From contig CANQKM010000004.1 of the NCBI GenBank assembly GCA_947624485.1, positions 62,001-126,000 of the forward strand: DNA of 64,000 bases, in the 5' to 3' direction. The translations under genes were made by a program, and so were the position numbers. Positions 58,831 to 64,000 of this stretch are shown in pieces (position 1 is the first letter of the stretch; each line of letters starts with the position of its first letter). The notes below the pieces were generated by a model. That model was not told where the DNA came from and did not search any database. It saw only the letters and a list, made by a program, of their open reading frames with translations. Source of the DNA: an uncultured Clostridia bacterium. Lineage in GTDB: Bacteria > Bacillota > Clostridia > UBA1381.

Positions 58831-61165
58831 AAAGCTTTTCCTTTGTTTTGTCCTCGTACCATTCAAACATACTTCTGTGGCGGTCTTTCTCGCGCTTTAC
58901 CGCGAAATGCGCCTTGCTGAAGCCGATACCGCCCTCCTCACCGTCCTTTAAGACGTACGCGCCCGTTCTGACCACGAGGTCAACGCCCGGGTATTTCTCG
59001 TTCTGGCGGCGGCAGAATGTCTCGTACTCGGTCTTGTACTTTTTGATAAGATTGTAGTCGTACCTGCCTATGCGGAACGCGCAAAGGAAGTTGTCCGTGC
59101 CGTTCACATGTCCGAATACGGCGCGCGTGGGTTCCGTGTTACCGCTTATAAATCTGCCGAAGTCGGCGAGCATATCGTCGCCGGCACGGTAGCCGTATTT
59201 CAGGTTTAACTGTATCATACCCCCAAACTCACAGTGGAACACGACTATATCCTCGCCGTTTTCCGCCGCGAATTTGCGCAGTCTGCCAAGCTCCGTATAG
59301 AATTTGTCCATGTTGTAGAGACCGGTGCGCTTGTCGATTTCAACCTCCTTCTGAAGCTCTATCTCGCGCTGCGTTCCTCTGCCCGCCTGCGCGATAAACA
59401 TCGTCATGATTTTCGTCGCGATATTGAGGCTTTCCTGTTCCTCCGGCTTCCACTCCTTGTTTTTGTCAAAGCGTATGCATGTGAACATGTAGAAGTTTTC
59501 ATCGGTCGTTGTGTCGGCAATGTAAATCATGCTGTAGTCTTTGTTTTTCTCAAACTCACGCTGGAATTTCGACGAGAAGCCTTCCGTATTTTCCGGCGTT
59601 ACGGCGAATACGGGGTTTTTCTCGAAGTGGTTGCGGAATTTCATTATGTCCGAGTGAACGTAGTAGCCGCTCTTTCCGGCGTTGTTGTGAAATTCCGAAT
59701 CGCGCGACCACTCGTAGCGCACGGTTATGAGGTCGTCCTTGCTGTTTACCTGCATTACCTGCATCCAGTCGAAGTCGAATTTCGCTGTGATGTACTTTAT
59801 TATGCCGTATATCGTGTCGTCGTTCGTTTTAGCCGCGGCGGAAAGCTCAAGAAATACCTTCATCAAATCCTTCTGCTCCAGCATTTCCTTGCTTGTGTCG
59901 TCGTCGGTCTCGTAATCAATGGCTCTGCCGCTGCTCTCGTCCATGCTGTCGTTGTAAAGCTGCCACTGCGCCTTACCGTTCTTCTTCGCGGCGTACAGCG
60001 CCTTGTCAGCCTTTTCAAACATTTCCTTATAGTGCGGCTGCTCGTCAAACTGCCCGCCGAGCGAAATACCGATACTGCACGACACGTTGCCGCCGTTCGC
60101 GAGACGGAAGTCGAGCAGCTTAAGTATTATCTTATCGGCTGTTTCCTTGACCTCCTTCTTGTCGGCAGCGAAAACGAACAGGAAAAATTCGTCGCCGCCG
60201 TACCGTCCGGGTATTGAGAAATTCGGGCGTATATCCGCCAAAACATGCGCCACCATTTCTATTACCGTGTCGCCGTAAAGATGTCCGTAGGTGTCGTTTA
60301 TGTTCTTGAAATTGTCAATGTCCATTACGAGCAGAGCGTAGTCGCGGCGGTCGGGGTTTTTCTTTAGGTAATCCTCTATCCGCTTTACCGCGGCGTTTCT
60401 GTAGTAGATGCGCAGATTCGTGTCCATCTCCGCCTCTGCCTGACGCTCCTTCGCCTTTGTTTTCTCGTCCTCTATATCCACCATTACGCCGAAAACGCGC
60501 GCAAGATGTCCGTCGTCGTCATAGTCAAACTGACGCGTCACGCGGTACCACCTGTACGTATCCTTTCCCGGCAGCATTATCTGCGCGGCGAGAACGCTTT
60601 CCTCGGGGTTATAAATATTGTTCAGGAAAAATTCCCTGTTTTCGGGGTGAAGCGCCTCCGGAGGCATACCCGTCTCATCGCCCACATTCTTCACTATCTT
60701 AACCGAACTGCCGTCGCCGTCGGGCATATAGAAGGTGTGCGTTTTCTTTTTAAGATTATGCTCGAATACGATATTTTTCGAGTCGCACATCGTTTCCGCG
60801 AATTTTTCCTTCTCGATTTCCGCTTCCTCCGCCATTTGGCTGTACTCTGTCGCGTCCCATAAAATTCCGAGAAGCACGCCGTCAGAATACTGCGAAACGG
60901 TCATTTCTATCGTCTTGTTCCTTTTGCCGCACTTCGCACTGTAAGTAATTTTTTTATTTTCACCGTTCTTCGCTTTTTCAGCCGCGGTCTCAAGATTTTT
61001 CACATTATCGTCGGATATGTTGAGGTTCACATCTCCGTCGTTTGAAAACGAAGAAAAATATACTTCGTTCGCGTACAGAACCTTCCACGGCGCATGGTCT
61101 TCAAACGCTACCGCACCGCACGGTAATTTGTTAAGCTCGTCGTCCGGGAAATAGCATTTATTCAT
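58829..61165 (-). CDS. GGDEF signalling protein with PAS-like and second degenerate GGDEF domain
   Basis: A 778-residue cytoplasmic protein from ATG 61165 behind GGAGGCGAGG. The N-terminal 250 residues hold PAS-like segments (GILWDATEYSQM, WYRVTRQFDYDDDGHLARVFGVMVDI in parts). A complete GGDEF domain follows near residues 285-410 with DIDNFKNINDTYGHLYGD and RYGGDEFF, consistent with cyclic-di-GMP synthesis. A GAF-like middle lies near 440-620. A second GGDEF-like domain near 645-770 has NGTDNF in place of GGDEF and is probably inactive. There is no membrane segment. Ligand and output are unknown. Confidence 0.85.
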   Translation of the reverse strand: MNKCYFPDDELNKLPCGAVAFEDHAPWKVLYANEVYFSSFSNDGDVNLNISDDNVKNLETAAEKAKNGENKKITYSAKCGKRNKTIEMTVSQYSDGVLLGILWDATEYSQMAEEAEIEKEKFAETMCDSKNIVFEHNLKKKTHTFYMPDGDGSSVKIVKNVGDETGMPPEALHPENREFFLNNIYNPEESVLAAQIMLPGKDTYRWYRVTRQFDYDDDGHLARVFGVMVDIEDEKTKAKERQAEAEMDTNLRIYYRNAAVKRIEDYLKKNPDRRDYALLVMDIDNFKNINDTYGHLYGDTVIEMVAHVLADIRPNFSIPGRYGGDEFFLFVFAADKKEVKETADKIILKLLDFRLANGGNVSCSIGISLGGQFDEQPHYKEMFEKADKALYAAKKNGKAQWQLYNDSMDESSGRAIDYETDDDTSKEMLEQKDLMKVFLELSAAAKTNDDTIYGIIKYITAKFDFDWMQVMQVNSKDDLITVRYEWSRDSEFHNNAGKSGYYVHSDIMKFRNHFEKNPVFAVTPENTEGFSSKFQREFEKNKDYSMIYIADTTTDENFYMFTCIRFDKNKEWKPEEQESLNIATKIMTMFIAQAGRGTQREIELQKEVEIDKRTGLYNMDKFYTELGRLRKFAAENGEDIVVFHCEFGGMIQLNLKYGYRAGDDMLADFGRFISGNTEPTRAVFGHVNGTDNFLCAFRIGRYDYNLIKKYKTEYETFCRRQNEKYPGVDLVVRTGAYVLKDGEEGGIGFSKAHFAVKREKDRHRSMFEWYEDKTKEKL

Positions 61166-61211
61166 TTTTTCCTCGCCTCCTGATTGAATTTTTACATATT
61201 TATAGTAATAT

Positions 61212-61240
61212 ATTTTATCATAAACTGAATGTAAAGTAAA
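61212..61240 (-). promoter_or_regulatory. Predicted promoter of the GGDEF gene
   Basis: On the minus strand TTTACT and TAAAAT are separated by 17 bases with a TGA extended -10, about 47 bases before the ATG. Confidence 0.65.
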
Positions 61241-61360
61241 TAAATATGACCTCCGCAAAATGAAAACCGTATAATTTTACAAAAAATTTCGAGTTTTATT
61301 GTGTATATTTACCAATCAATTCCGCTTTTGCTTTGAATATTGTTTGCACATTAGATAAAA

Positions 61361-61384
61361 GGAGCCGGACACACGTCCGGCTCC
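61361..61384 (-). terminator. Intrinsic terminator of the SLH/glucosaminidase gene
   Basis: A perfect 10-bp stem GGAGCCGGAC / GTCCGGCTCC with loop ACAC is followed on minus by TTTTA. Confidence 0.8.
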
Positions 61385-61391
61385 GTAAAAT

Positions 61392-62489
61392 TTAATACCG
61401 TTTCATCTCGTCGAGCATTCCGAGAATTTGATAGCCGTAATTTATATCGGGACACCACTTGCCGCCGAGCTGCTCCACATACTCAACCGTTCCCGCCCAT
61501 TCGGTCGTAAGCGCCACATAATAACGGTCGTGTACCTCGCCTACCGGATCAAGTCCCGTGTACGCGCACATGTGGTTGAAGTGCGCTCTCACGCCGTCGT
61601 CGGGCGTAGCGAACGACTCGTGATCCTCCGTCGCGTCGCCTTTGGAATCCTTGATTTTGATGCCCGCCCAGTTGTTCATCTCCGGCAGCACCGCGCCGCC
61701 GTAATTGCCGTAGCCCGTTTCCTTGCCCGCCTGCGCGTACATCACGTCAGGACGTATGCCGAACACCTCGCCGTAGTACCAGTAGAGCGGCGCGGCGTTA
61801 ATGAAAAGCTCCGAGCCGCCGCACGCCGACGCCCATCTGACCGCCTGTTCCTCGCTGACCTCGCTTTCGCCGAATATCGGAGTTAAGCCCTCCGTCGGAT
61901 TAAGCGCGCGGTACAAAATGCAGCAAGCCTCGGCGCGCGTCAGCAAGTCCTTCGGGTGCAGAAGCGCGTTTTCGTCGCCGCGCATAAGCAAATTTTTAAC
62001 AGCCGTCTCCACGAGGTTTTTATACGCGTCGTCAACGTCCGCGCCGTCGTCAAAGCTGTAATTCGTGACCGAGAAGCTGTCTGCCGCTTTTCCGCCTGAC
62101 GCTTTCACGAGCGTCGCGGCAAATTCCTCGCGCGTCACGTACTCGCCGCCGTTAAAATTTTCGCCGCGCACGGGCATACTGTCCTGTATTGCGAGCGAAT
62201 ACGGATAGTACCAGTCCGTCACCTTTGAGTCGGCGAAAGCCGTTTCGTCCGCTTCCGTAAGACCGAACGCGTCGGTGAATATACGCGCCATCTGCGCGCG
62301 CGTTATATTGCCGCCGAGGTCGAAATCGCCGTACTCGTCTCCCGACAGTATACCGTTATCGAAGCAGTACCGTGCAGCCGTCTCCGACCACGGGTACGCG
62401 TCTATTTCCTCTTCAAGTCCTCCCGCAAGCGCGGCTGCCGGCGCTGCGGCAAGCGTTAATGCCAGTATTGCTGATACGAATTTTTTCAT
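61392..62489 (-). CDS. SLH-domain protein with C-terminal glucosaminidase-like domain
   Basis: A 365-residue exported protein from ATG 62489. The signal peptide covers about residues 1-22 (FVSAILALTLAAAPAAALAG). Three SLH motifs follow (ITRAQMARIFTDAF near 59, VTREEFAATLVKA near 120, LTRAEACCILYRAL near 185) for anchoring to secondary cell wall polymer. The C-terminal 140 residues resemble an endo-beta-N-acetylglucosaminidase, with the likely catalytic Glu in YAQAGKETGYGNYGG near 255. It probably trims peptidoglycan. It follows dacF with its own promoter. Confidence 0.85.
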   Translation of the reverse strand: MKKFVSAILALTLAAAPAAALAGGLEEEIDAYPWSETAARYCFDNGILSGDEYGDFDLGGNITRAQMARIFTDAFGLTEADETAFADSKVTDWYYPYSLAIQDSMPVRGENFNGGEYVTREEFAATLVKASGGKAADSFSVTNYSFDDGADVDDAYKNLVETAVKNLLMRGDENALLHPKDLLTRAEACCILYRALNPTEGLTPIFGESEVSEEQAVRWASACGGSELFINAAPLYWYYGEVFGIRPDVMYAQAGKETGYGNYGGAVLPEMNNWAGIKIKDSKGDATEDHESFATPDDGVRAHFNHMCAYTGLDPVGEVHDRYYVALTTEWAGTVEYVEQLGGKWCPDINYGYQILGMLDEMKRY

Positions 62490-62520
62490 TTGATTTGTCC
62501 TTTCGCTGTATTGTAAGCGT

Positions 62521-62549
62521 ATTGTACCACACTTTTCCCGATTTTTCAA
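62521..62549 (-). promoter_or_regulatory. Predicted promoter of the SLH/glucosaminidase gene
   Basis: On the minus strand TTGAAA and TACAAT are separated by 17 bases. The -35 box overlaps the dacF stop codon. Confidence 0.7.
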
Positions 62550-63751
62550 GTAGTGACGTCGCTTTGCGGCGCGTCGGGCTGCGGAGTAGGCTCGCACTCA
62601 TATACGCCGCCGAAGAACACCGACAAAATAAGCTCGCGCAGCATAGCCGTTATGCTCTTTTTGTTTACGTCCGCGGCTGCGGTAAGGTCTATCTCGTCTA
62701 TCACCTCGCCGCCGCGCGTCACGCGCACCGTGCCGAGCTTATCGCCCGCCCTTACGGGAGCGGTCACGTCCTCGTCAAGCATGATCTCCTTCTGTATATC
62801 CTCCTCGCCGCCCTTTTTGGTGAGTACCGAGCAGCCGTCCGACGCTATGGCTTCCACCCTGTCAACTTCACCCTTCGCTACGGGAACGCTGCCCATATTG
62901 TCGCCCGCCGTCACCTGCGTATTTACGGAATAATTCGCGAAGCCGTAATCGAGCATCGCGCGCGCACCGTCGAACCGTTTCGCGCTCGTCGGCGCGCCGA
63001 GTATTACGGCGATAAGCTGCATATCGTCACGCTTCGCGCTCGCGGACAGACAGCAGAGCGCCTTCGACGTTGAACCCGTCTTTAAGCCGTTCGCGCCGTC
63101 GTAGCTGTGTATGAGCTTATTCGTGTTCGCAAGCTGGAACTTGCCGCCGCGGAGCGTGTCCGTCCATATCGATGTGTAGTTAAAGATAGTCTTGTGCTTC
63201 AACAGCTCGCGCGACATTATCGACACGTCGCGCGCGCTCGAATAGTGGTTGTCTGCATCGAGACCGTTCGTGTTCACGAAATGCGTGTTCTTCATGCCGA
63301 GCTCCTGCGCCTTTTTATTCATCATATCCACAAACGCGCTCTCGCTTCCGGCAAGATGCTCCGCCATTGCGACACAGCCGTCGTTAGCGCTCGCGACGGC
63401 TATACCCTTAAGCATATCGTTCACGCTCAGCTTCTCGCCCGCCTCGAGGAACATCGTGCTGCCGCCGTAGCTCATCGCGTTTTCGCTGACCGTAACCGTA
63501 TCGTCGAGCGTCAGATTGCCGTTATCGACCGCCTCCATTATGAGCAGCATCGTCATTATTTTCGTGACGCTCGCGATAGGCACCTGCTCGTCCGGCATCA
63601 TTTCGTACAGCACCTCGCCGCTGTCGGCTTCTATAAGAATCGCGGCGCGCGCGTCTATACCGAGGTTGGGCGCGCCCTCACCCTCCGCAAAAACGCTTAT
63701 CCCTCCGAGCGTAAGGGACAGGCATACCATTAAGCATATTATTTTTTTCAT
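62546..63751 (-). CDS. dacF: D-alanyl-D-alanine carboxypeptidase (DacF/PBP5 family)
   Basis: A 401-residue low-molecular-weight penicillin-binding protein that trims the terminal D-Ala of peptidoglycan stem peptides. The signal peptide covers about residues 1-22. The catalytic motifs are Ser61-V-T-Lys64, Ser121-A-Asn123 and Lys224-Thr-Gly226. The C-terminal PBP5-type beta domain ends with a helix near 365-380 (ITAMLRELILSVFF) that may attach to the membrane, and a Pro-rich tail. The ribosome binding site is AAAGGAG. DacF versus DacB naming is by overall resemblance. Confidence 0.92.
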   Translation of the reverse strand: MKKIICLMVCLSLTLGGISVFAEGEGAPNLGIDARAAILIEADSGEVLYEMMPDEQVPIASVTKIMTMLLIMEAVDNGNLTLDDTVTVSENAMSYGGSTMFLEAGEKLSVNDMLKGIAVASANDGCVAMAEHLAGSESAFVDMMNKKAQELGMKNTHFVNTNGLDADNHYSSARDVSIMSRELLKHKTIFNYTSIWTDTLRGGKFQLANTNKLIHSYDGANGLKTGSTSKALCCLSASAKRDDMQLIAVILGAPTSAKRFDGARAMLDYGFANYSVNTQVTAGDNMGSVPVAKGEVDRVEAIASDGCSVLTKKGGEEDIQKEIMLDEDVTAPVRAGDKLGTVRVTRGGEVIDEIDLTAAADVNKKSITAMLRELILSVFFGGVYECEPTPQPDAPQSDVTT

Positions 63752-63856
63752 ATTTTTACTCCTTTCTAATTTTTAGGATATGCCGTTTGTCCGCGTTTAT
63801 ACTATAAATTGTTACTATGTACCGATACCCCCACAAAATTTTGTATAAATTTTCTC

Positions 63857-63886
63857 TTGACAATTTCGCGGGGGGGGGGGTATAAT
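63857..63886 (+). promoter_or_regulatory. Promoter with 11-G spacer tract (likely phase-variable)
   Basis: Perfect TTGACA (63857-63862) and TATAAT (63881-63886) are separated by 18 bases, of which the last 11 are G (63870-63880). Loss or gain of one G would change the spacer to 17 or 19 and thereby promoter strength. A 12-base palindrome ACAAAATTTTGT lies upstream at 63833-63844. Confidence 0.75.
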
Positions 63887-63926
63887 ATACGAGTTAATAA
63901 TTACATAATAGGGGGAATGAACAACC

Positions 63927-64000
63927 ATGAGAAAAAAACGAATTTTCAGTTTACTGCTCGCGATATGCACGCTGTCCGTGTTCGTATTCGCGGTACGGGC
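63927..64000 (+). CDS. Secreted or surface protein (partial, N-terminus only)
   Basis: Only 24 codons are visible before the right edge. They form a typical signal peptide: a basic start (MRKKR) and a hydrophobic core (IFSLLLAICTLSVFVFA). The ATG at 63927 follows GGGGG at 63911-63915 by 11 bases. A second ATG at 63917 is in another frame and encodes no signal peptide. It is driven by the poly-G promoter. The mature protein cannot be identified. Confidence 0.7.
   Translation, partial: MRKKRIFSLLLAICTLSVFVFAVR

Follow-up and report, generated by a model that had tools for sequence, protein, structure and literature searches.

A stretch of 64,000 nucleotides from an uncultured Clostridia bacterium (hereafter the window; G000:C4:62001-126000) carries near its end an uninterrupted run of eleven Gs in the spacer of a perfect consensus promoter. 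We consider it highly likely that this run is a phase-variation element of the porA/tp0126 type, here in an uncultured Gram-positive lineage. The -35 hexamer TTGACA (63857..63862, + strand) and the -10 hexamer TATAAT (63881..63886, + strand) match the consensus at 12 of 12 positions and form the sole perfect pair within positions 60000-64000. The 18-bp spacer between them (63863..63880, + strand) reads ATTTCGC-G11, the homopolymer itself, which is the proposed slippage tract, occupying positions 63870..63880 (+ strand). It is the only run of eight or more Gs on either strand of the window. A probable ribosome-binding site AGGGGGA follows (63910..63916, + strand), and the window then closes with the ATG and 5' end of the controlled gene (63927..64000, + strand), which encodes a signal peptide (MRKKRIFSLLLAICTLSVFVFAVRA). 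A sequence-only reading of the window had described both this promoter, with its G11 in an 18-bp spacer, and an ORF beginning with a signal peptide; the first is exact to the base, and the second is real, with the ORF starting at 63927. As 46 bp separate it from the ATG, the tract does not lie in the reading frame, where it would act by translational frameshift. The divergent upstream neighbour, a D-Ala-D-Ala carboxypeptidase-like gene (62546..63751, - strand), sets the upstream boundary and is no part of the switch.

Contig C4 of the genome assembly (G000; 2.7 Mb in 35 contigs, 91% complete) extends past the window, so that the controlled gene can be traced beyond the window edge. Gene content and the relationships of similar matches point to the Clostridia. 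It encodes a protein of 759 aa (contig C4 125927-128206, + strand; L002 1927-4206) composed of the signal peptide, a GH26-like part (Pfam E-value = 2e-5) and a Cu_amine_oxidN1 domain (E-value = 5e-21). Against the PDB it exhibits a weak match to the beta-1,3-xylanase 2ddx (E-value = 4e-5), and the 759-aa protein showed no anchor of its own. About 15 bp past its stop codon starts the gene of a 704-aa SLH-domain protein (L002 4221-6335), and the two genes form an apparent operon. The signal peptide, the GH26-like and Cu_amine_oxidN1 parts and the SLH protein behind them mark the product as a surface or secreted one.

A distance of 17 ± 1 bp from one hexamer to the other suits RNA polymerase with a housekeeping sigma factor best. 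The window spacer is 18 bp long, a single base off 17, and so is that of its orthologue in the sister species G010. We propose that the G11 tract serves as a contingency (phase-variation) element acting by slippage in the spacer. Tracts of G10, G11 and G12 would give spacers of 17, 18 and 19 bp, so that one-base slips would raise or lower expression of the operon. G10 (17 bp) is predicted to give the strongest promoter; the 18 bp of the assembly would make a strong or intermediate one, and G12 or more, as well as G8 or fewer, weaker ones. We infer that slippage occurs at the window locus, that it affects transcription, and that the resulting heterogeneity of the cell surface would be of benefit, be it antigenic, in phage receptors or in glycan foraging.

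Several known systems bear comparison. The porA gene of Neisseria meningitidis has a poly-G tract between -35 and -10 (PMC2791445, PMC7864442), and tp0126 of Treponema pallidum, encoding an OmpW-like protein, has one in its spacer, with the best transcription at 17 bp (PMC7864442). The window promoter resembles porA, which controls a surface protein, in having poly-G in a spacer near 17 bp. It differs in its uncultured host of Gram-positive type, in its unrelated, secreted GH26-like gene, in its perfect consensus hexamers, in the recurrence of its layout at several loci of a single genome, and in being known from sequence alone. The likeness to tp0126 is again the poly-G in the spacer; however, tp0126 encodes a spirochaete outer-membrane protein, and poly-G variability has been measured in T. 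pallidum whereas the window tract is known from assemblies. The homopolymers of opc and fetA in N. meningitidis, which alter the expression level, likewise lie within the core promoter (PMC2791445), but opc has a poly-C tract reaching the -35 region, unlike the window's family, in which G-strand tracts were the only kind found. In the pilus clusters of Bifidobacterium breve a G tract acts as an ON/OFF switch by slippage (PMC9187656). That case shares with the window a Gram-positive gut commensal, a G10-G12 tract, a surface structure and slippage (proposed for the window), but involves a frameshift in the coding region instead of promoter spacing. Within the porA/tp0126 type, the notable feature that sets the present example apart is its use at multiple loci of one genome.

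In the sister species G010, the orthologue of the controlled gene (96% amino acid identity) lies behind the promoter TTGACATTTTCGC-G11-TATAAT, again with an 18-bp spacer. The -35 hexamer and the ribosome-binding site are kept, and bases have changed on both sides of the tract. The window G11 is therefore no private assembly error, since the same tract stands between diverged flanks at the orthologous place of an independently assembled genome. Homologues at 33-66% identity have no G7+ tract upstream, which suggests that the switch is recent and dispensable. On the other side, the tract could be fixed at the window locus, being G11 in both species compared (one genome each).

The number of G9+ tracts in the genome is close to that expected from the dinucleotide frequencies of the window, with 3.7 expected and 5 seen; for G11 or longer on both strands of the 2.7 Mb, 0.16 are expected and 2 are seen. 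It is the location of the G9+ tracts that is striking. Three of the five, which are the longest G runs of the genome, lie within TTGACA/TA(T/A)AAT spacers, on contigs C4 (the window promoter), C1 and C2. The C1 promoter (TTGACA-AACTTC-G11-TGC-TATAAT, spacer 20 bp) precedes the gene of a secreted Cu_amine_oxidN1 protein, and the C2 promoter (TTGACA-AAATTC-G10-TGC-TAAAAT, spacer 19 bp) that of a secreted protein with BspA-type LRR_5 and Cu_amine_oxidN1 domains. As assembled, with TGC before the -10 hexamer, both would be in weaker states. A further tract, on C6, lies inside a reading frame: it is a G9 in the signal-peptide region (G000:C6:113417-113425; L013 1501-1509; L257) of a gene that is out of frame as assembled and would run on into a long frame (TASAKQDTATEDE...) with G8 or G11. 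This gene is a candidate for translational phase variation, OFF in the assembly, and resembles the B. breve frameshift case instead. With two promoters in predicted weaker states and the C6 gene out of frame, switches in different states seem to coexist in this single genome. Seven species share a tract of a different sort, a C9-C11 run at the 3' end of the gene for an AraC-like regulator and identically placed in each (G000:C1:94355, L253; further loci L233, L243, L252, L264, L265 and L269); its length alters the last residues of the protein.

The layout recurs within the genus. Our set of 16 genomes contained 65 G9+ tracts, one obvious 53-G artefact (G005:C168) being excluded. Nineteen of them lie within a promoter of at most two mismatches on the G strand, ten of these promoters being perfect, while the complementary strand of the same 65 tracts yielded no promoter with fewer than three mismatches. 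In a pattern search, 4 of the 16 genus genomes gave 11 rows and 7 of the 70 genomes of the family gave 15; the reversed pattern returned none in either set. By a simple rule of charge and hydrophobicity, all of the 17 testable downstream genes in the genus have signal-peptide-like N-termini, against 17 of 61 (28%) local background genes (P = 4e-8), the 17 including orthologues across species and so not representing independent events. These genes span unrelated families (GH26-like, BspA-type LRR_5, beta-helix, SLH-like and Cu_amine_oxidN1). That a chance G run or a poly-G sequencing error simply fell into a spacer would agree with the small excess of G9+ runs in the genome and with the fact that poly-G artefacts do arise in such assemblies; at the end of G005:C168 (L225), a C run is followed by the 53 Gs, probably an Illumina poly-G artefact. 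But this explanation is hardly credible given the same tract at the orthologous site of a separate assembly, the empty reversed-pattern controls and the signal peptides of the downstream genes, and the placement by strand (19/65 versus 0/65) refutes it as a general account. As the same layout recurs before secreted-protein genes of this genome and its relatives, the tract is most likely a copying-slip switch. The earlier suggestion of a probable phase-variable surface gene is favoured by this recurrence, together with the absence of such promoters from the C strand and from the reversed pattern.

Beyond the family, the feature becomes patchy and is not class-wide, pure-G9 spacers being rare among the 391 genomes of the class searched with a mixed G/C-run pattern; the matches listed include G000, G323 and six in G414. 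The last genome, a distant member of the class, has at least six promoters with pure-G9 spacers, on contigs C3, C4, C5, C7, C9 and C10, four of the form TTGACAAAC-G9-TG(A/G)-TATAAT. Among the class matches listed, poly-C spacers are confined to two small genomes, G347 and G363, both from another genus, whose genomes measure about 1 Mb. These are C8-C9 tracts in consensus promoter spacers (G347:C3:91715, G363:C5:40039 and G363:C12:26709), on the strand opposite to that of the window's family. In a collection holding one genome for each named species, the pattern TTGACA-N4-8-G9-N0-5-TATAAT was found in at least 120 stretches. The matches listed are mainly from uncultured gut Clostridia, Bacilli and Tenericutes, and also from Candidatus Ancillula, Saccharibacteria, Helicobacter, Treponema and Streptobacillus. 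Signal-peptide-like N-termini were seen in 39 of 71 genes among these listed matches, the background figure being 95 of 342 (P = 1.4e-5). The spacers of 80 listed collection matches peak at 16-19 bp, a peak that is unusable as evidence because the search pattern itself favours that range.

The strand of the tracts deserves separate consideration. With C8 in place of G8, the same promoter pattern was found in none of the 70 family genomes. Slippage is indifferent to whether G or C stands on the coding strand, and the G-only bias of the family is unexplained by slippage alone; were slippage the sole cause, C tracts should serve equally, which is a point against our reading. Several promoters of the genus have common flanks (TTGACAAATTTC-Gn-TGCTATAATAGT..ATTATAAG), and descent from one copied cassette (TTGACAAATTTC-Gn-TGCTATAATAG...) may account for part of the bias. 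The shared cassette flanks are missing, however, from the window promoter and the G002 promoters, which have the tract all the same. In G010, about 78 bp of promoter and upstream sequence, 95% alike, stand before two different genes (L240, G010:C33:1-78, compared with L237 and L239), an arrangement suggestive of a copied promoter cassette. The end of G010:C23 bears the upstream flank of the G000 C2 promoter.

The strict G strand and the empty C-tract search would also be expected if the G run were an invariable structural component of a strong promoter, such as a rigid G-rich spacer or a site that a regulator recognises on the G strand, serving a regulon of secreted proteins, with its length under stabilising selection and slippage incidental. 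The flanks common to several genus promoters look regulon-like, and the G11 of the window locus in both species fits as well. However, a structural element should not vary, whereas promoter tracts range from G9 to G13 (with one G15 at a contig end) and their spacers from 15 to 21 bp, often between identical flanks; two lengths occur at one G010 locus, and the window and G002 promoters carry the tract without the shared flanks. We thus regard a fixed structure as unlikely.

The locus with two lengths lends comparative support to the phase-variable reading. Two contigs of G010, C27 with the upstream gene and C19 with the downstream gene, are each colinear with the C1 locus of G000 and share an overlap of about 104 bp that spans the related promoter, where C27 has G9 and C19 has G10; G000 has G11 there, with its 20-bp spacer. 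In the simplest reading, the G010 assembly broke at this promoter because both lengths coexisted in the sample. More generally, a contig end is found no more than 160 bp away from 6 of 20 promoter tracts, where about 0.2 would be expected (from rounded contig numbers and genome sizes), compared with 2 of 45 other G9+ tracts (Fisher P = 0.008). The contig-end excess and the G9/G10 overlap support, without proving, length variation at the related loci. G tracts are also reported to cause the Illumina "G's end" artefact or blocked reads, which can likewise make contig ends (PMC9187656), and some of the G010 contig breaks may be due to the similar promoter copies of about 78 bp.

Tracts of G10-G11 also occur in the genus in the 5' UTR, downstream of a TATAAT-like box and ahead of the ribosome-binding site (L231, L241, L242, L251, L270 and L271); the genes concerned, in G009, G011, G012 and G015, belong mostly to one family with starts like MKTSRLRPTFKIAARRFTAGLICMFTMISMMN. 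Spacer length cannot be the cause of any effect in that gene family, a circumstance which speaks for a tract that acts once transcription has started, or by way of DNA structure at the promoter (inter-strand G structures, for example, or an R-loop), instead of through spacer length, as do the G-strand bias and the poly-G of T. pallidum tprL, which affects expression without changing spacing (PMC7864442). For the window we judge such a mode of action very improbable, as the tract lies wholly between the perfect hexamers and stops short of any transcribed sequence. Inside the spacer, any change in its length is expected to have a spacing effect.

In the open-licence literature, we found no published case of poly-G promoters of this kind in Clostridia, Lachnospiraceae or gut commensals. 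DNA inversion is the mechanism of phase variation usually discussed for gut Clostridia and their relatives. Promoter switching by slippage is familiar from textbooks as a device of mucosal pathogens, Neisseria and Treponema among them. It is possible, at somewhat less than even chances, that uncultured gut Clostridia and their relatives bear whole sets of poly-G promoter switches, derived in part from a copied cassette (TTGACAAATTTC-Gn-TGCTATAAT), in which only G-strand tracts work, before genes of secreted LRR, SLH, Cu_amine_oxidN1 and GH26-like proteins. If so, surface proteins would be switched combinatorially in lineages where inversion has been the usual subject, and single consensus genomes would conceal the ON and OFF states of surface genes. 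Existing metagenome reads allow a direct test of slippage. The multi-copy layout before secreted-protein genes and the abundance of matching stretches in the wider collection suggest that commensals, even those with neither culture nor genetic system, may also diversify their surfaces by promoter slippage.
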